A stretch of 37,505 nt of DNA, from positions 1 through 37,505 of the IMG/VR virus record IMGVR_UViG_3300031876_000003; one strand, written 5' to 3'. The translations under genes and the position numbers were made by a program. Position 1 is the first letter of the stretch, and every line of letters begins with the position of its first letter. This stretch comes from a virus. The notes beneath the pieces are model-generated. The model made no database searches. It saw only the letters and a program-made list of their open reading frames with translations, and was not told the DNA's origin. Of the stretch, positions 3,260-12,716 are shown piece after piece.

Positions 3260-5014
3260 ATGACTATATCATATACCAGTGAAGGCAAGTTTCCCCTTCT
3301 AGACACCGGGGCGAGCAACTGGGGTGCAGTAATCAACGGAGTATTAGAGCAGTTAGACAAGGGCATTGAACTGTCCTTTATTGCTGGAGAGAATCTATTA
3401 CAATATGACACTGTGTATATATTCAGCGCCAATATTGTTAAGAAGGCATACGCTGGTGGAGCAGGCACCAAACCTGCAATAGGATTAGCGCTTAGCGCTG
3501 CAGTTAGCAGTGCCCCAGTTAAAGTAAGAGTGTGGGGCTGGGTAGATTATGATGACACTGCCTTTGGCGATCTCGGGGCTTCTGCAGGGAATACTATCTA
3601 CCTTGCTAATATAGCTGGTAAGCTGACTATTACACCCTATACTGACTACCCACAAGTAGTTGGTATAGCTAAGACAGCAACGGTATCACACATCACGCGT
3701 ATTTGTCTAAATCCAGTTACCCACGTGCATCAGTTAGTGGACAAAACAAGTAGCCCGACATTTGCTGGTCTTACACTAACTGGCTTCTCTGGTGTGATTA
3801 AAGCTACTGCTGGAGTTCTAGCAGGTAATGCGGTACATGGGGATCTTGGGGGTATTACAGCTGACCAGCATCATGCTCAAGTACATGGGTTAGTGTCGGC
3901 TAATCATACTGTATCCGGTCTAACTATCGGACATGTTTTACGTGCTACTGCTGCAGACGCCTTTGGTTTTGGGACAGTTACTTCTGCCGTAGTAAGTGAT
4001 TTTAATGAGGCTGCTCAGGATGCAGTTGGAGGAATTCTAACAGACTCAAGCTCAATAGATTTCACCTATGATGACAATGCTAATACTATTACTGCTGTTG
4101 TATTGCCCGGGGGTGTTGACCATAATTCTTTACAAAATTTTGTGGCCAATAAACACATAGACCATAGTGGGGTATCAATTTCTGCAGGAACAGGACTAGC
4201 AGGGGGTGGAGATATAACATCATCCAGAACTCTTTCATTATCTCATCTTGGCATTGAATCTCTCGCCGATCCTAATGCTGATAGGATATTATTCTGGGAT
4301 GATTCCGAGACTGCAAGTAAATGGCTTCTCTGTGGTGATTCGGTATCTATCTCTGGAACTACATTAGATACAGTACAAGATATAAGAGCTTCCGCTTCTC
4401 CAACATTTGCTGGATTAACTCTTACTGGATTAACAACGGGCCAAATTTTGATGGGGGTGGCAGGAGTAATAACAGGTTATTCTAACCTATCCTGGAATCA
4501 GGGGGAGGAGCGGTTAGTAATTAAATCGACAGCTGCGACATGGGTTCGTACTCTTTCTATCTATAATGCTACAGCAAATAGTTGTCCTTATTTACAAATT
4601 GGTTGGAGTGATGCCTCTACTGGCTTAACAGTAGGCTATGTTGTTCCCAATCCCGCTGGAGCAAATTATGGATGGATTAGTCATTCAGGGTTGGACCCAA
4701 CTTCTCAAGGAATGATAGTTCATAATTCCGGCAGATTTGGCATTTGGACAAACAACCCTGGAGCATTATTACACATCGACCAAAGCTCAGCAACAGGTGC
4801 AATTCCAGTTTTAACAGTTGACCAAGCCGACGTAAGTGAGGAATTCATACGATACATAGGTACATCAGCTAATGGAGTGCTTACCCAGTCACTAGTTGAG
4901 GCAGCCGATGTTTCAACAGCAACGCTGGTCGGCTATAAGAAAATCTATGTTGTAGATGATGGGGATCAGATTACAGACGGTCCGTACTTTGTACCTTTTT
5001 ATACTTTAGCATAG
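3260..5014 (+). CDS. Tail fibre-like structural protein
   Basis: A 584-residue protein preceded by a clear AGGAG 6 nt before the ATG. The N-terminus (to about residue 150) resembles phage appendage attachment domains, with 'GVLEQLDKGIELSF' and a following beta-rich module. The rest contains imperfect repeats built on 'SPTFAGLTLTG' (near residues 165 and 378), each followed by a Gly/Ala-rich 'GVL/GVI' segment, typical of trimeric phage fibres. The C-terminal part (about 400-584) has 'NLSWNQGEERLVIKS' and 'GRFGIWTNNPGALLHID', the signature of a fibre distal domain seen before intramolecular chaperone regions. I see no chaperone cleavage motif. Location, directly after the tail-tip gene, supports a receptor-binding or side-fibre role; the receptor is unknown. 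Confidence 0.68.
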   Translation: MTISYTSEGKFPLLDTGASNWGAVINGVLEQLDKGIELSFIAGENLLQYDTVYIFSANIVKKAYAGGAGTKPAIGLALSAAVSSAPVKVRVWGWVDYDDTAFGDLGASAGNTIYLANIAGKLTITPYTDYPQVVGIAKTATVSHITRICLNPVTHVHQLVDKTSSPTFAGLTLTGFSGVIKATAGVLAGNAVHGDLGGITADQHHAQVHGLVSANHTVSGLTIGHVLRATAADAFGFGTVTSAVVSDFNEAAQDAVGGILTDSSSIDFTYDDNANTITAVVLPGGVDHNSLQNFVANKHIDHSGVSISAGTGLAGGGDITSSRTLSLSHLGIESLADPNADRILFWDDSETASKWLLCGDSVSISGTTLDTVQDIRASASPTFAGLTLTGLTTGQILMGVAGVITGYSNLSWNQGEERLVIKSTAATWVRTLSIYNATANSCPYLQIGWSDASTGLTVGYVVPNPAGANYGWISHSGLDPTSQGMIVHNSGRFGIWTNNPGALLHIDQSSATGAIPVLTVDQADVSEEFIRYIGTSANGVLTQSLVEAADVSTATLVGYKKIYVVDDGDQITDGPYFVPFYTLA

Positions 5015-5023
5015 GAGGTTACT

Positions 5024-5212
5024 ATGAATGTGTATCAGAAACTGATTCAGATGAATCACGACTACCATATATTGGTTGAAGAAGTACTACAGCTAGAAGT
5101 AGGTGAAGTAGAGCAACGTGTAAAAGTAAAAACTGAATTCTCTGCACGTGCTGCGGATGTTATGCAGTCAATGACTCGAGCCAACAATATTTTGAAACCT
5201 TATTTTCAGTAG
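5024..5212 (+). CDS. Small helical protein after tail fibre
   Basis: A 62-residue protein with a strong ribosome site (AGGAGG, 6 nt before ATG), 9 nt after the fibre gene. It is predicted to be mostly helical and rich in Glu, Gln and Val (for example 'DYHILVEEVLQLEVGEVEQR'). It has no signal peptide, no membrane segment and no cysteines. I do not recognise the family. Its position between a fibre gene and a lipoprotein gene suggests a late function, such as a fibre-assembly chaperone or a small lysis or exclusion accessory, but nothing in the sequence decides this. The strong Shine-Dalgarno and lack of competing frames make it a credible gene. Confidence 0.55.
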   Translation: MNVYQKLIQMNHDYHILVEEVLQLEVGEVEQRVKVKTEFSARAADVMQSMTRANNILKPYFQ

Positions 5213-5223
5213 GAGCAACACAC

Positions 5224-5718
5224 ATGAGAACTAAGCTGTTAAGTTACGTAATGTTAGCCCTGGGCCTTCTGTGTATGACAATACTGGGCTGCAGAACCTT
5301 GATAGATAGTCTAACACCGGTGATAATACCAGAACAAGCCCTCCAATATGTAGGTCGTTCTAATGGTTGGACTTCCTTGAGAGATGCACGTGACATTAGA
5401 ACTAATATTCTCATCACACATAGAGATAAACAACTAGAGCTAATCCGTAATGTAGAAGACGATAAATATGCCTACGAGGACGCTCTCCAACTAGTAGAGT
5501 ACAATATCAGGGAGGCAGAGGAGCTGCAGGCACTAGTTATAGGTAGCTCCGAGCAGCCCTTTTCGATACTGGGTATATTAGCTGGGGCCTTTCCCGGACT
5601 AGCTATCGGATCACTGTTACTAAAGCGGCCGCAGGACTATACTAAGGACCAAGTAGAAGCTATAGTAGCTAAGAGGTTAGCCGGGGCATACAACCAGGTC
5701 AACAGCAAGCCCGTTTAG
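5224..5718 (+). CDS. Lipoprotein with C-terminal hydrophobic segment
   Basis: A 164-residue protein. The N-terminus has two basic residues, a hydrophobic stretch and a lipobox 'TILGC' with Cys23, so it should be exported and lipidated by Lgt/LspA. The mature part is charged and helical (about residues 45-110, likely a short coiled coil), followed by a Gly/Ala-rich hydrophobic segment near 118-140 ('ILGILAGAFPGLAIG'), possibly membrane-inserting. It is the last gene of the rightward tail operon, followed by a terminator. Phage lipoproteins at this place can be outer-membrane spanins or superinfection-exclusion factors. No endolysin or holin accompanies it here, so the choice is open. SD: AGGAG about 8 nt before ATG. 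Confidence 0.55.
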   Translation: MRTKLLSYVMLALGLLCMTILGCRTLIDSLTPVIIPEQALQYVGRSNGWTSLRDARDIRTNILITHRDKQLELIRNVEDDKYAYEDALQLVEYNIREAEELQALVIGSSEQPFSILGILAGAFPGLAIGSLLLKRPQDYTKDQVEAIVAKRLAGAYNQVNSKPV

Positions 5719-5874: not shown

Positions 5875-6237
5875 CTATCTATCCTTAGATTGCCCCTTTA
5901 ATCCACCTCTGATGCCAAGTCGTCTTAGCTGTGCTCGAATCTTACGAGCTTGACATGGATCTTTAGCTGACCTAAGCTGACTAATTAGGTCCTGGGTCTT
6001 CCCGGGTGGAAGTGAATAGTTAATACTGCCTCGGTCTGGGGTAGTAATAGGCTCACTTAGATCTTTCTTGATTGGAACCCTAAGTATTGCAGCCATCTGA
6101 CTGCCTATCTTAATAGCCTCCCTCGAAGAGTCAAAGGCAAAAGCTAAATATGATTTACCCTCCTCGTTTATACGATAGATTCCTGCTTCATCTCCCAGTG
6201 TAATTTTGACTAAAAGCTTTTTGCAACCTTTTATCAT
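5875..6237 (-). CDS. Unknown protein with C-terminal LRRLGIRGG motif
   Basis: A 120-residue protein, last gene of the leftward operon, with SD TAGGAG 8 nt before the ATG. The N-terminal 60 residues look alpha/beta ('SYLAFAFDSSREAIKIGSQM'). The C-terminal 35 residues are basic and helical and end in 'IRAQLRRLGIRGGLKGQ'. The same motif, including the preceding 'DP...RKIR', recurs in the neighbour at 6331-7176 and in the TS-fold protein at 10499-11359. It is likely a small nucleic-acid or protein docking module. I do not recognise the family and assign no function. Confidence 0.55.
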   Translation of the reverse strand: MIKGCKKLLVKITLGDEAGIYRINEEGKSYLAFAFDSSREAIKIGSQMAAILRVPIKKDLSEPITTPDRGSINYSLPPGKTQDLISQLRSAKDPCQARKIRAQLRRLGIRGGLKGQSKDR

Positions 6238-6330: not shown

Positions 6331-7176
6331 CTAATCTTCGTTAAGCTCTTCACTATCGAGATCCTCATCTACATCGTCGATGTCCTCTAGTCTCGAAGTT
6401 TTAGCTGGTTTCTGGGAACTAGGCCTGCCCTGAGAGGTCTTGCCCTTCTTCTTAGGCTGTTCATCATTCTTGGTAGTCTTCTTGGCAAATGTCTTGGGCT
6501 GATTCAGCCCCCCTACATGCCCCAGCTCCCGAAGCGCCTTGCGAATCTTTCGCTTCTCGGCTGGATCGGTAGATTTCTTCAGCTGCTTAAGTAGCTTCTC
6601 AATTTGCTCTTTCTTTTCTACTTTACTCATTGTACTCTCACTTTCTTGATGGACCTCGGGTTGATTTGCTATAGGACTCTGAGGAGGCCTAGCTCGGAGC
6701 CCTAATATTTTATGGTATATTGCTAGCTCTTCAGATCTAGCATACTTGAGCAACCTGTCACTTTCTTGCCATATTTCCAGATACCTACTAGCGTTATCCA
6801 CATAGCCTGGTATTGACTCTATATAATATATAATAGATCTCGTTGCCGTGTAGATCCTATAGCCCAGGTCCTTAATAACTCGGCGACCCAACCAGAAGTT
6901 GTCAACGGCCTGGCCTAACTCCTTCTGGGCCTGGGCTACGGGCTTCTTGAACTCCCTGGGTATGCTAACCTTGCCATAGGAGTGACGTAGTTTACTAAGA
7001 TGACCCCTCGAAGTTATGATATTTGAATCTACCCTAATCTGAGTAAGCTGATTTACTAACATATCTAGCTGTGCTATTGTGTCGCATATCTCTTTGAGCC
7101 TGGGCTCTACATCGTTCATAATACTATGACAGTTGACCGTCACAGTTTCGAGGTCTAGCTCAGAACTCTTGCTCAT
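6331..7176 (-). CDS. Unknown helical protein with basic LGHVGG module and acidic tail
   Basis: A 281-residue protein. Residues 1-170 are predicted helical. A linker rich in Pro, Gln and Ser follows, then from residue about 181 a basic module 'KKEQIEKLLKQLKK', 'DPAEKRKIRKALRELGHVGG', a Lys-rich stretch, and a very acidic last 20 residues (Asp/Glu repeats). The basic module recurs in the 120-residue neighbour and in the TS-fold protein at 10499. An internal ATG at about residue 180 follows GAGAG, so a short C-terminal product is conceivable. The start overlaps the stop of the upstream gene (ATGA). Lys-rich plus acidic-tail architecture suggests nucleic-acid binding. Family not recognised. Confidence 0.55.
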   Translation of the reverse strand: MSKSSELDLETVTVNCHSIMNDVEPRLKEICDTIAQLDMLVNQLTQIRVDSNIITSRGHLSKLRHSYGKVSIPREFKKPVAQAQKELGQAVDNFWLGRRVIKDLGYRIYTATRSIIYYIESIPGYVDNASRYLEIWQESDRLLKYARSEELAIYHKILGLRARPPQSPIANQPEVHQESESTMSKVEKKEQIEKLLKQLKKSTDPAEKRKIRKALRELGHVGGLNQPKTFAKKTTKNDEQPKKKGKTSQGRPSSQKPAKTSRLEDIDDVDEDLDSEELNED

Positions 7177-7885: not shown

Positions 7886-8413
7886 CTATCTTGAGTTACG
7901 GTGTTGGATCCATCCAAAATATTCAGTTTCAGTTAACTGAATATTAAGTACCATATACTTCTTATTTGCTTGGTTAAAGCAGTAAGAGCAGCGAGAGCAG
8001 TCAGAGCAGTCAGAGCAGTCAGAGCACTTAGAGCAGTGAGAGCAGCAAGAGCAGTCAGAGCAGTAAGAGCAGTAAGAGCAGTCAGAGCAGTCATAGCAGC
8101 AAGAGCAGTCAGGGCAGTTAGAGCAGTCAGAGCAGCGAGAGCAGTCAGAGCAGTCGGAGCAGTGAGAGCAGCAAGAGCAGTCGGAGCAGTCAGAGCAGCA
8201 AGAGCAGTCAGAGCAGTCATAGCAGCAAGAGCAGTCGGAGCAGTCATAGCAGCGAGAGCAGTCAGTATTACTCGACTTAGCCTTAAGAGCCACTGAGAGG
8301 TTTACATACTCATCCCTTAGCTCTGTCTCACTCATACTTAAAACTTTTTTTACCTCAGCTTTCATTTTTTGAGTCCTTAACTTAATTTTTAATTTGTCTA
8401 TTTCTTTTGTCAT
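7886..8413 (-). CDS. Cys-triplet repeat protein (DCS repeats)
   Basis: A 175-residue protein. Residues 1-50 are a charged helix. Residues 51-145 are a strict three-residue repeat with Cys at every third position from 52 to 145 (32 triplets, 37 Cys in all), mostly Asp-Cys-Ser with the variable residue D, R, Y, C, H, N or K. The last 30 residues are ordinary. Over the array the TGC codon is kept while the first codon of each triplet varies, which argues that this frame is the coding one. Such proteins may fold as a cross-linked beta-solenoid or bind metals; no function is established. No Shine-Dalgarno is visible, and an extended -10 promoter lies 9-18 nt before the ATG, so the message may be nearly leaderless. 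Confidence 0.6.
   Translation of the reverse strand: MTKEIDKLKIKLRTQKMKAEVKKVLSMSETELRDEYVNLSVALKAKSSNTDCSRCYDCSDCSCCYDCSDCSCCSDCSDCSCCSHCSDCSDCSRCSDCSNCPDCSCCYDCSDCSYCSYCSDCSCCSHCSKCSDCSDCSDCSRCSYCFNQANKKYMVLNIQLTETEYFGWIQHRNSR
7979..8263 (-). repeat. Tandem 9-nt repeat array (GACTGCTCT units)
   Basis: About 32 head-to-tail copies of a 9-nt unit, GACTGCTCT on the minus strand (AGAGCAGTC on plus), with point variants mostly in the first codon. It encodes the Cys-triplet part of the gene at 7886-8413. The array also creates long open frames in other phases (Ala-Val-Arg and Thr-Ala-Leu repeats) that are not genes. Copy number could vary by slippage. Confidence 0.85.
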
Positions 8414-8422
8414 ATCAATTAT

Positions 8423-8431
8423 ATTATAACA
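8423..8431 (-). promoter_or_regulatory. Extended -10 promoter for the Cys-repeat gene
   Basis: Minus strand TGTTATAAT: a perfect TATAAT preceded by TGn, 9 nt upstream of the ATG at 8413. No good -35 is seen 17 nt upstream (TTTTAG). A start site 6-7 nt after the hexamer would leave a leader of only 2-3 nt, in keeping with the missing ribosome site. Confidence 0.45.
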
Positions 8432-8508
8432 TATATTCAGGACAACTAAAAAGAAAAATTCTTTGGAAACTCAGAAAAATTCTAAGATTACTTAGTGGAA
8501 GTAGGGTA

Positions 8509-10449
8509 CTAGTGGAAGGTCTTAATATCCTTGACCTTTTCCTTCTCACTCCAGCGCTGCTTAGCTACCTCTATGCCTACCAGTATCGGCACATAGAACT
8601 TCGTGTGGTCCTCCATGAGTTTAACTACCCAGGGTATTACCCGGGGCACTTCGCTACGAGGTATCTCGATTACTAACTCGTCATGGATCTGCATCAGAAG
8701 GCGAGCCCGAAACCCACGGCATCTTAGCCAGTTGTCGATATTTACCATAGCTAGTTTGATCTGATCAGCCGACGTACCCTGGCAATAGTAGTTCAGCACT
8801 TTGTAGCCTAGCTCTGCTGGAATGTAGTACCGTCTACCATAGGGGTTAGTAACATAGCCCCTCTCCTCTAACTCTCGAGCTAGTCTTTTGATAGTAAGTG
8901 GTACTAGAGGATATGTTCTAAAGTACCTTCTCTTCAAGCTACCTGCCTCCTCTACTGTAGTAGGCGAGCCTTTTTTGGTGAGTGTCTCGGATAGGGTAAA
9001 ATCTCCGGCACCGTAGATGATAGCAAAGTTAACTGTAGCTGCTCGGTCCCTCTCCTCTTTAGTTATAGACTCGGGAGGTTTAGAGTAGATGTCCGAGGCT
9101 GTTTGTAGGTGAAGATCGTAGGGTAACCGAGCTAACATCTTGTCGTCTTTGGCGAAATGAATATAGAACCTCATCTCTACTTGTTTATAGTCAAAATGCC
9201 AGAAGTAAGTACCTCTTCTAGGCACAAAGCACTCACGGGGTCCTAAGAGGCGTGGCATATTCTGTAAATTGGGATCCGTACTACTAAATCTACCTGTGGC
9301 AGCTGTACTCTGGTTGAAGTTGCAGTGTAAGATACCATACTCTCTACCGCTGAATCTCCACCTATCTATTGAATCATTAATAATATGGTCATAGTAAGTG
9401 GTAATGAGTTTTGAGTATTCCCTGTGTTTGATAACAAGAGGGGGCAGCCACTGGCTTGAGGGTAAGCGGTGCTTCTTCAGAGTATTACCTACGGCTCTAT
9501 AGTACTTATCAAAAGGCCAACTCTCGAGGCCCGATTGATGAACAATCTCTGCCAAAGGTGCTGCTACATACCTAACCAAAGAGAATTCATCAAAAGACCA
9601 TCGACCCCCGCCTTTCTTAGTTCTTGACTTTTTATCTTTCTTTGGTTTTGTCTTGTAGATGAGGTCTATGCCGAGTTTCTTGAAAGCAGTTACCATTTGA
9701 AGAGAGCTGCCGGGATTGAACACCTTAGTTATCTTCTCAAGGCCCTTCTTCTTCTCTATAATAAGAGGCAGAGTCAATTTGTTTAACTTGGCCTGAATTA
9801 TGTGCAGATTCTTCAGACATTCTGTTCTAAGCTCCTTAGCACGAGTAATGTCCACTGGTACACCCCGAAGTTCCATCCTAAGGCAAGTAAATATCAATTG
9901 GCGTTCTGTCTCATACAGCTCGGGGCAAATCCTCTGAATCTTGGGCCAGAGAGCCAAGTATAAGTCACGTGCCGTACGGGCGTCCCATTTGCAACGTTCA
10001 ACAATAATGTCTCGAGGCACGTCGGCAAAGTTAGGGAGCCTACCCTGTTCCTTCAGGAACTGTTTAGTGTGAGACTTGATCCAATCCTCAGCATCTTCTT
10101 TGAAATAGTAGTCACGGTATAGGTATCGACGAGATACAACCCTGATATTATGGTACTGAGCACACGAGTCAAGTACCTTAGACATGACCATTGTGCAGTC
10201 GACCCGTGCCTTAATATGGTCAAGATCTAGCCCGTCGAAATGGAGAGCCTTCAAGTCGTGCTTCGCATTATGGAATACTAGTATGTTACTCGTATTATTG
10301 AACAGTGCAAACAGTTTTTTGAGGCTCCTCTGGGTTTTAGGTATGTAGACTGGCTCAGCTCCTTTTTTGGCAATAGACCAACAGAAAACTCTATCACCAT
10401 GATAGAAGTCAAGACCCGTCCCTTCAGTATCCAGGCCGTAAAGTATCAT
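8509..10449 (-). CDS. polA: Family A DNA polymerase with 3'-5' exonuclease domain
   Basis: A 646-residue replicative polymerase. The N-terminal exonuclease domain shows ExoI 'GLDTEGTGLD' (D7, E9), ExoII 'FHNAKHDLKAL' (D65) and ExoIII around D156. The polymerase domain shows 'TAATGRFSSTDPNLQNMP' (382-399), motif A 'FDYKQVEMR' (D420), motif B at 467-480 and motif C 'QIHDELVIE' (D590, E591). There is no 5' nuclease domain, as in T7-type enzymes. In motif B the order is R467...A471...F475...Y479: the Lys that family A polymerases keep in helix O (K758 in E. coli Pol I, K522 in T7 gp5) is Ala here. Phe475 at the 762 position predicts discrimination against dideoxynucleotides. A basic insert lies at 265-282. 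The start follows the remnant methylase end, with no strong SD. Confidence 0.93.
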   Translation of the reverse strand: MILYGLDTEGTGLDFYHGDRVFCWSIAKKGAEPVYIPKTQRSLKKLFALFNNTSNILVFHNAKHDLKALHFDGLDLDHIKARVDCTMVMSKVLDSCAQYHNIRVVSRRYLYRDYYFKEDAEDWIKSHTKQFLKEQGRLPNFADVPRDIIVERCKWDARTARDLYLALWPKIQRICPELYETERQLIFTCLRMELRGVPVDITRAKELRTECLKNLHIIQAKLNKLTLPLIIEKKKGLEKITKVFNPGSSLQMVTAFKKLGIDLIYKTKPKKDKKSRTKKGGGRWSFDEFSLVRYVAAPLAEIVHQSGLESWPFDKYYRAVGNTLKKHRLPSSQWLPPLVIKHREYSKLITTYYDHIINDSIDRWRFSGREYGILHCNFNQSTAATGRFSSTDPNLQNMPRLLGPRECFVPRRGTYFWHFDYKQVEMRFYIHFAKDDKMLARLPYDLHLQTASDIYSKPPESITKEERDRAATVNFAIIYGAGDFTLSETLTKKGSPTTVEEAGSLKRRYFRTYPLVPLTIKRLARELEERGYVTNPYGRRYYIPAELGYKVLNYYCQGTSADQIKLAMVNIDNWLRCRGFRARLLMQIHDELVIEIPRSEVPRVIPWVVKLMEDHTKFYVPILVGIEVAKQRWSEKEKVKDIKTFH

Positions 10450-10458
10450 AACTTTTTT

Positions 10459-10532
10459 ATGTTACTTTCTACTTCATTACCCCCCCACATGTCCCAGTCT
10501 AGTGTTTTCTTGTGGGGCAAATAGCTCTATTC
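10459..10532 (-). pseudogene. Remnant duplicate of the MT-A70 methylase 3' end
   Basis: This stretch is a diverged direct repeat of 11405-11474, the last codons of the MT-A70 methylase. Shared blocks on the plus strand include ACTTTCTACTTCATT and the CCCC-rich block after it. In the methylase frame it would read I-E-(stop)...K-K...W-D-M-W-G, but it has an in-frame TAG and a run of seven G that shifts the frame before N-E-V-E-S. It overlaps the last 11 codons of the TS-fold gene in another frame and ends just before polA. It is a leftover of the methylase end, produced by duplication or by insertion of the TS-fold gene between methylase and polA. Confidence 0.6.
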
Positions 10533-11359
10533 AATGTCTTTTTACCTCTTATGATGAAATCCTTGGGCCTATATAACTTATAGGGGGGTTGTATCAAACC
10601 TCTATATAATAAGGGGTTAGTACAAAATTTAACTGTTAAGTCTTTGGCTTTCCGTACTGCTTTATAACTAGTATCACTTATCTTAATAGTCTTATCAGTA
10701 AATGCTGCTAACTCTGGTATCATGGCTACAATTAGAGGGATATGATAATGCGGCATCCAAGCTAGGCCAAAATTCATTTCAACTTTGTTGACAGTAGTAT
10801 ACCATTTGCCCAAGATAAACCTAAGTACATTATCTATCATGCCTAAGTCAGCTTGGAGTCGTCGTACTGTTTCTACTGTCCGAAATACTATCAAAGGAAC
10901 TGTTTCATCTCGTGAAACTCTAAGAACTAGAGCTACCAAACATAACCCAGTTTTGTGCATCTTAGCATCTATGGTACCACCACTATGACCTAATTCACGA
11001 AGCTCTCTACGTATAGCCAAAGCGCGGGGGCAACTAGAACTAGGTTGTTGCTTAAGCTCGCCCACTAGTTTTATTATGTGTGGGTTTGAGGGAAGAGTAT
11101 TACCAAACAGAAAAGTCAATGCAAAGTCTCTACTTGATCCCCATCGCTCTGTCAATTGGTCGCGAACGGCCTGTAGATGATTAAAGTCAATATATAAGCC
11201 TTGTAAAACAGGTATTTTCTGGTTGCCGTAGCCCGAGGCACTCCATACGTCCCAGAGTCTCCATCGGGTTAGGTAGTCTAAGTTGTAGTTAACTCTAAGA
11301 TTAGGAGATTGTAGAACTCTCTTATTTACATCTTTGTAAGCTTCTATTAAGTCCCACAT
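10499..11359 (-). CDS. Thymidylate-synthase-fold protein C (divergent)
   Basis: A 286-residue protein that I place in the thymidylate synthase superfamily from active-site spacing: Cys140 in 'HKTGLCLVALVLR', Arg160 in 'LIVFRTVETVRRLQADLG' (+20), Glu163 (+23) and Asp171 (+31). These match E. coli ThyA C146, R166, D169 and N177. His204/His206 follow near the expected third motif. The +5 Gln is Val, so catalysis may differ. Residues 112-128 carry the basic 'LRELGHSGG' motif shared with two other proteins of this operon, placed just before the Cys. The gene is bracketed by two copies of the methylase 3' end, so it may be an insertion. The ribosome site is poor. It could be a modifying enzyme or an inactive partner of the 258-residue paralogue. 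Confidence 0.55.
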   Translation of the reverse strand: MWDLIEAYKDVNKRVLQSPNLRVNYNLDYLTRWRLWDVWSASGYGNQKIPVLQGLYIDFNHLQAVRDQLTERWGSSRDFALTFLFGNTLPSNPHIIKLVGELKQQPSSSCPRALAIRRELRELGHSGGTIDAKMHKTGLCLVALVLRVSRDETVPLIVFRTVETVRRLQADLGMIDNVLRFILGKWYTTVNKVEMNFGLAWMPHYHIPLIVAMIPELAAFTDKTIKISDTSYKAVRKAKDLTVKFCTNPLLYRGLIQPPYKLYRPKDFIIRGKKTLNRAICPTRKH

Positions 11360-11394: not shown

Positions 11395-11940
11395 TCATAA
11401 TGCTATGTCACTTTCTACTTCATTGCCCCACACGTCCCAACCAGAACTTTTCTTACGAGCAAAGAGTTCTATCTTATTAACACAAGGAAACATGTCTTCA
11501 ATTCGTTTTCGTGCTGATCTCGGCTTAGTAGAGTGCGTAGTACGAATTGCTACTATTAAGCTACGAGTGCTCCGGTGGCTAAGAATTTTGTGTGGTCTGC
11601 CTCTAGTACCAAATAGACACAGTTCTGTACTTTTCATAAACCAGGGAGAAACTACTACTACTGGCCTACCTGTTCTGTGTATCTTGACCCAAACAAAGGC
11701 TACAGTAGTATATTTGAATCCCCAAGATTGCATCACAGTAATACCTGAGTCCAGGCGTCCATCAGTTACCCATAGAAACAGTACAGAACTTGGTGCAGCA
11801 ATAGACTTTACATCCAGTTGACATAACTCCGAAGTACTCATTCTTGGGTAGTGTAGTATGTCACGAGACTTGTTATGACTTCGATATCTACCCAGATGCT
11901 TCCAAGGTGGATCGGCATATATGACCTGGTACTTCTTCAC
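11395..11940 (-). CDS. MT-A70-family N6-adenine DNA methyltransferase
   Basis: A 181-residue protein with the beta-class motif IV 'YADPPW' (D10-P-P-W13) near the N-terminus, followed by 'RDILHYPRMSTSELCQL', 'VLFLWVTDGRLDSG', 'GFKYTTVAFVWVK' and 'ELCLFGTRGRP', the standard order of the MT-A70/Ime4-type phage adenine methylases. The C-terminus 'IELFARKKSSGWDVWGNE' is the usual closing strand. It should transfer a methyl group from SAM to N6 of adenine in a short DNA motif, protecting phage DNA or marking it. GTG start overlapping the previous stop by one base. No cognate restriction enzyme is present. Its 3' end is duplicated at 10459-10532. Confidence 0.88.
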   Translation of the reverse strand: MKKYQVIYADPPWKHLGRYRSHNKSRDILHYPRMSTSELCQLDVKSIAAPSSVLFLWVTDGRLDSGITVMQSWGFKYTTVAFVWVKIHRTGRPVVVVSPWFMKSTELCLFGTRGRPHKILSHRSTRSLIVAIRTTHSTKPRSARKRIEDMFPCVNKIELFARKKSSGWDVWGNEVESDIAL

Positions 11941-12716
11941 TAAAAGATACCCCGCACCTTCAGGTCCTTATAGTATGCATGAAGCGACCCAACGAAGTAG
12001 GTGAACCGCCCAACTCCCAATTCTATTTTCTCGGCAAACCAGTTCTGCAACTTTAGCGCTAATAGCACATCGACTGGGAAGTGAGTCAAAAAGTCGCAGG
12101 ATCTCATAGCGTAGATGAGGTCTATTTTACCTTCCCGAAGCAGTATCTGATAGTATATCGAACACGGAACTCGGCCCTGTCCACCTATATTGTCAAGGTC
12201 CTTAGAACGGTTCACCACATTGGTCTCGGCATGCTCGGGCCAATAGTCTAAGGGACAGATGTTGCTATGGATGTTGATAATCGCCTGCCTAGTATTGGGG
12301 TTCTTACGGAGCTCGTCTAAAACAGTATCAAGCTGAGGAGAGATCCTCTCGGAGTAGGTATAGGCAAACTTACCTTCATGTAAGAATTCCTCCCATAGCC
12401 CAAGGCGGTGTTTATAAGAGCTGCCTGGATTTGTAGGAATTTCCGACGTACGGTTTAAGAACTCCTCCTCAATATAGCTCCGAACACTGTCTGAGTCACC
12501 GGGAAAGAAATAAGCTAATATCCTCTCGACATCTTTCTCTTCCCAAGCCCAGTTTGCAATCATGAAGGAGTAACCTCTTAGCTCCTTGGTGCAATAGTCG
12601 GGATTATTCTTTATATACTTGTCCTGCATGGTCTCAGGATGGACTTCAATGCCCATCTCCCAGAGCTCGCGTTCAACCTCTTTGAAGGCCTCACTTGGTC
12701 TTTGATATATTCTCAT
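11940..12716 (-). CDS. Thymidylate synthase / dCMP hydroxymethylase-like enzyme
   Basis: A 258-residue ThyA-fold enzyme. It has 'NPNTRQAII' (R143, phosphate site), the catalytic loop 'GRVPCSIYYQ' (C185, Q190), 'YAMRSCDF' (R205, S206, D208), Asp216 at +31 from the Cys, and 'GSLHAYYKDL' (H246, Y248). In dUMP-specific ThyA the +31 residue is Asn177. Asp there is the hallmark of dCMP-specific enzymes such as T4 gp42 (D179), and the stretch MRS..D to Asp aligns to gp42, as I recall it, without gaps. The protein should therefore methylate or hydroxymethylate C5 of dCMP using methylenetetrahydrofolate. Strong SD GGAGG. Neighbours: MT-A70 methylase, UDG, two other TS-fold proteins and an NTP pyrophosphatase. 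Without biochemistry, dCMP versus dUMP and methyl versus hydroxymethyl remain inferred. Confidence 0.8.
   Translation of the reverse strand: MRIYQRPSEAFKEVERELWEMGIEVHPETMQDKYIKNNPDYCTKELRGYSFMIANWAWEEKDVERILAYFFPGDSDSVRSYIEEEFLNRTSEIPTNPGSSYKHRLGLWEEFLHEGKFAYTYSERISPQLDTVLDELRKNPNTRQAIINIHSNICPLDYWPEHAETNVVNRSKDLDNIGGQGRVPCSIYYQILLREGKIDLIYAMRSCDFLTHFPVDVLLALKLQNWFAEKIELGVGRFTYFVGSLHAYYKDLKVRGIF

Follow-up and report, generated by a model that had tools for sequence, protein, structure and literature searches.

The O-helix lysine of motif B is regarded as an invariant residue of family A DNA polymerases and serves as a filter for recognizing real polymerases. An IMG/VR virus contig of 37,505 bases (IMGVR_UViG_3300031876_000003; hereafter the window, the whole stretch of DNA analysed) raises the question of whether a family A enzyme lacking this residue can still work as a polymerase. 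The gene and its polymerase motifs, the latter placed by a Klenow-numbered alignment, are as follows:

8509..10449, minus strand: family A DNA polymerase with a 3′–5′ exonuclease domain, 646 aa, identified by profile matches, PDB alignment and an AlphaFold2 model
9169..9192, minus strand: motif A, D420–R427 (DYKQVEMR)
9109..9111, minus strand: His447, the kept triphosphate contact (Klenow H734)
9010..9051, minus strand: motif B, R467–G480 (RDRAATVNFAIIYG), aligned without gaps to Klenow R754–G767
9037..9039, minus strand: Ala471 codon GCT at the Klenow K758 position
8677..8685, minus strand: motif C, H589-D590-E591

The encoded protein matches Pfam PF00476 (DNA_pol_A) with an E value of 1.4e-70 and 238.6 bits against a curated cut-off of 34.3, its exonuclease domain matches PF01612 (DNA_pol_A_exo1; E 6.8e-09), and phrog_17 is a further family match. 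The AlphaFold2 model (pLDDT 93.9, pTM 0.92) adopts a Klenow-like right-hand fold (Foldseek E 4e-31 to 1d8y), with Klenow and Bst Pol I as the top PDB matches. Motifs A and C are intact as originally predicted, with D420, E425 and the family A signature H589-D590-E591 all present, and R387 (R668 in Klenow), H447 (H734), R467 (R754), F475 (F762), Y479 (Y766) and Q557 (Q849) are kept as well. The window polymerase thus shares with Klenow and Bst Pol I the fold, motifs A and C, these contact residues and the four exonuclease carboxylates, and differs from them in having Ala for Lys758, an acidic residue at 755, Arg for the ExoIII residue Tyr497 and Arg at 726. The motif B consensus R-x3-K-x3-F/Y/L-x3-YG retains its R, F and YG and has Ala in place of K; because of this replacement we file the protein as a family A variant rather than a canonical member, its homology resting on profile, fold and remaining motifs.

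Motif B reads R467-D-R-A-A471-T-V-N-F475-A-I-I-Y479-G and aligns with the corresponding Klenow segment RRSAKAINFGLIYG with no gap, so that the K758 position falls on Ala471 and the absence of the lysine, the central claim of the original prediction, is certain. Residues 465–482 contain no other Lys; K464 directly precedes motif B and is His in one close relative (L090). In a final alignment of 127 sequences, comprising the window polymerase and relatives from viral contigs, phages and a plasmid collection with columns numbered by Klenow, the K758 column holds Lys in 123 sequences, Ala in three and Gly in one, and the four exceptions are a single group formed by the window polymerase and its three nearest relatives: L008 (Gly; IMGVR_UViG_3300009034_000050), L088 (Ala; IMGVR_UViG_3300033141_004908) and L090 (Ala; IMGVR_UViG_3300033156_000251). 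These relatives are 51–53% identical to the window polymerase and 63–66% identical among themselves, and the comparison with close phage homologs proposed at the outset accordingly finds the lysine missing throughout the sub-clade. A sequencing, assembly or translation artefact is refuted as the explanation because the relatives share the absence: the state recurs on four separate contigs whose codons differ (GCT, GGC), every one of them two base changes from a Lys codon, as in the step from AAR to GCT.

A codon-level scan of 2.9 million viral contigs recovered a lysine-less motif B only in the three relatives and in one truncated fragment. The pattern, R-x2-A-[non-Lys]-x2-N-F-[G/A]-x2-Y-G run as DNA on all viral contigs, covers motif B sequences of the N-F type in which position 757 is Ala, position 763 is Gly or Ala, and the codon at 758 begins with C, G or T. 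Its AGR version returned exactly L008, L088 and L090 and doubles as a positive control, while the CGN version gave one match, L127, and at least 120 matches in viral contigs when a Lys codon was substituted. The L127 match is a 174-aa family-A-like fragment with Gln at the lysine position (8361–8882, plus strand, in a 363-kb contig) and is probably truncated or decayed. A single-protein scan yielded no close relatives of the window polymerase, bacterial and archaeal genomes yielded no relatives with either alignment, and named phages yielded distant matches only, all below 60% identity, with lysine in every sequence retrieved.

The lysine-less four belong to a wider clade with five distinct lysine-bearing sisters, L106, L107 (with a near-copy, L251), L249, L250 and L174, which are 41–50% identical to the window polymerase by tblastn. 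All nine distinct sequences group in one clade (support 100/100), and in a tree built with the fingers region omitted the five sisters make up one side of a branch supported at 98/97, a topology compatible with the lysine-less four as either a clade or a grade. All other family A sequences in the alignment have Lys, which makes the lysine ancestral, and since all outgroups carry it the most parsimonious history would be a single loss inside the clade. The lysine-bearing polymerase of L174 (445–3390, plus strand) also carries, between TGRF and SSS, an insert of ~306 aa that begins with Cys, ends with His-Asn and looks like an intein.

Across six clade members, pN ranges from 0.23 to 0.39 and pS from 0.78 to 0.88, and we give no dN/dS ratio because synonymous sites are saturated. 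This pattern points to strong purifying selection on the clade polymerase genes and, together with the preserved metal-binding carboxylates and other phosphate-contacting residues, upholds the earlier view that the gene is not decaying; the window polymerase is likely active. An unlikely alternative is that the polymerase site is idle or nearly idle and the protein is kept for its exonuclease, DNA binding or scaffolding, with replication left to the host polymerase or to a PrimPol-D5 protein. Such a reading draws on the loss of most activity in Klenow K758A (PMC6181923) and on the PrimPol-D5 protein encoded in the window, but D420, D590, E591, R387, R467, H447, F475, Y479 and Q557 remain conserved among sequences 51–66% identical, the exonuclease is altered as well, and PrimPol-D5 occurs in the window record alone among the records searched. 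Those six records (the window, L008, L088, L090, L106 and L107), which may be fragments, encode one family A polymerase apiece and no family B, PolIII-alpha or second family A polymerase. Most of the phage replication could also be carried out by the host polymerase.

The exonuclease domain departs from the canonical pattern in one residue, as seen in the Klenow-numbered alignment of its motifs:

10423..10431, minus strand: ExoI, D7-T-E9
10255..10257, minus strand: ExoII, D65
9982..9996, minus strand: ExoIII, R152-C-K-W-D156, with Arg replacing the usual Tyr497

The prediction of intact exonuclease residues stands for the four metal-binding acidic residues D7, E9, D65 and D156 (D355, E357, D424 and D501 in Klenow) and fails for the ExoIII tyrosine, where the Y-x3-D arrangement of DEDDy enzymes is replaced by Arg152 in R-x2-W-D156. 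The Y497 column has Tyr in 116 of the 118 sequences from outside the clade and Arg in all nine clade members, and because the change is common to all nine it preceded the loss of the lysine. The role assigned to Tyr497 in Klenow, helping to position the substrate, is a secondary one (PMC9629493), and an exonuclease lacking it may accordingly be modified without being inactive.

Set against the five lysine-bearing clade members, the lysine-less four show substitutions in and near the polymerase active site that accompany the loss of the lysine. In Klenow numbering these are 714 F to Y, 726 A/E to R, 733 I to L, 753 Q to E, 755 K to D/E, 758 K to A/G, 759 to S/T, 763 G to A and 824 H to Y; the changes near the active site gather around the O-helix and His734, and the other columns separating the two groups lie elsewhere in the protein. 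Two of these positions lie in the window polymerase gene as follows:

9046..9048, minus strand: Asp468 (Klenow 755), Lys in all lysine-bearing sisters, acidic in the lysine-less four (Asp or Glu)
9127..9129, minus strand: Arg441 (Klenow 726), six residues ahead of His447

Arg441 is present in 4/4 lysine-less members, in 0/5 lysine-bearing sisters and in ~1% of other family A sequences, and is the sole uniform basic gain that coincides with the loss. A single lineage amounts to one event and so offers no independent replication of the co-changes, which may be hitchhiking. Arg469, put forward originally as a compensating residue, does not act as a specific one, because every lysine-bearing sister has it too (RKRAK or RKRGK); it also occurs in some unrelated lysine-bearing enzymes. 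Lys437 was rejected as a co-change, being Lys also in sisters L249 and L250 and dropping out of the larger comparison.

These comparisons bear on whether another basic residue of the chain, Arg441 or the conserved basic loop 490–498, has taken over as a relocated general acid, a possibility that we judge less likely than not. The gain of Arg441 in precisely the lysine-less four is what such a replacement would leave behind, but arginine is a poor proton donor owing to its high pKa, and loop 490–498 is basic in the lysine-bearing sisters too and thus not specific. A relocated donor is known from Pol kappa, where a functionally equivalent lysine (Lys25) is supplied by the N-clasp (PMC6181923), and X and Y family enzymes place a third metal ion where the lysine would sit (PMC5718519). 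These examples show the lysine's part taken by a metal ion or by a residue that does not belong to an O-helix; they come from other polymerase families, however, and provide only a model for filling the gap.

A close precedent within family A is Klenow K758A, which carries the same substitution at the same position and shows a kcat reduced 30–3000 fold with Km little changed (PMC6181923). Activity there is reduced rather than abolished, leaving room for a slow lysine-less enzyme, although that mutant was made in the laboratory, whereas the state of the window polymerase is natural, long maintained and accompanied by extra changes in the fingers. Because K758A retains activity and other families show that substitutes exist, we favor, at a probability of about 0.62, a working phage family A polymerase that naturally gave up the O-helix lysine as general acid and neutralizes the pyrophosphate in another way. 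The clade first acquired the altered exonuclease, seen as the ExoIII Tyr-to-Arg change in its nine distinct members, and on the simplest history one lineage then lost the lysine, now Ala or Gly, as the fingers around the triphosphate site were rewritten. Two-metal chemistry would go on with the triphosphate still held by R467 and H447, and the leaving pyrophosphate would be neutralized by something besides the O-helix lysine. Arg441, swung in from the helix leading to His447, is a candidate for this role; alternatively, the space left by the lysine would be taken up by water or a third divalent metal ion. The expected cost would be slower chemistry and slower pyrophosphorolysis, and a weakened exonuclease would keep a slow polymerase from idling. 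By analogy, chemistry without the O-helix lysine is probably slower, and the slower or more accurate synthesis suggested originally is a fair prediction from the Klenow K758A data. That the lysine-less four represent a natural family A lineage combining all three features, no O-helix lysine, a phosphate site rebuilt around Arg441, a third metal ion or solvent, and an exonuclease without the DEDDy tyrosine, we consider an even bet.

The neighborhood of the polymerase gene bears on an explanation of a different kind, the adaptation of the enzyme to modified dNTPs:

11940-12716, minus strand: thymidylate-synthase-like protein in which Asp216 aligns with Asn177 and Cys185 is conserved

Asp216 replaces the dUMP-binding Asn177 of the E. 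coli enzyme, which we take to suggest a cytosine substrate, and the protein may act on dCMP. On this explanation, loss of the lysine would suit the polymerase to hydroxymethyl- or methyl-cytosine nucleotides made through this nearby protein, an idea to which the dCMP-deaminase-like gene that L008 also carries (identified by eye) would lend itself. We regard it as very improbable. The thymidylate-synthase-like gene is common to the window, L008, L088, L090 and L106 (it was not found in the L107 record), and L106 has the equivalent Asp yet encodes a lysine-bearing polymerase; a glycosylase and a MazG/dUTPase-like gene are likewise also present in L106. In the records compared, losing the lysine thus shows no association with base-modification genes, leaving the suspected tie to modified nucleotides without support, and the O-helix lysine touches the phosphate and not the base.

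Several other features of these loci were recorded. An MT-A70 adenine methyltransferase gene (window 11395-11940, minus strand) adjoins the thymidylate-synthase-like gene, and directly downstream of the polymerase gene lies a 175-aa ORF (window 7886-8413, minus strand) with a long run in which Cys occurs at nearly every third residue (DCSDCSCCSDCS...). A short KIRKxLRxLGHxGGL-like motif appears in three different window proteins (5875-6237, 6331-7176 and 10499-11359, minus strand) and in several proteins of the relatives. In L008, the region between the thymidylate-synthase-like gene and the polymerase (4560-5385, plus strand) contains an extra ORF resembling a homing endonuclease together with the dCMP-deaminase-like gene, both recognized by eye.

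A search of the open literature, which took in few subscription journals, turned up no natural family A polymerase described as lacking K758. The survey of viral PolA by Keown et al. (2022), which included IMG/VR version 3, required K758 (PMC9069017); as only sequences with this residue were kept, the lysine-less clade was excluded by design. Its metagenomic phage family A polymerases, partly from IMG/VR and including the F762 type, resemble those described here and, unlike the lysine-less clade, all have K758. The clade argues for dropping K758 from active-site filters. The lysine-less four and their lysine-bearing sisters also offer a natural before-and-after pair for testing general-acid catalysis by the lysine and its replacements. 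A small group of uncultured phages has long kept a well-preserved polymerase without this residue, a natural test of the need for it, and if these enzymes carry out nucleotidyl transfer, the O-helix lysine would be dispensable in natural family A polymerases.
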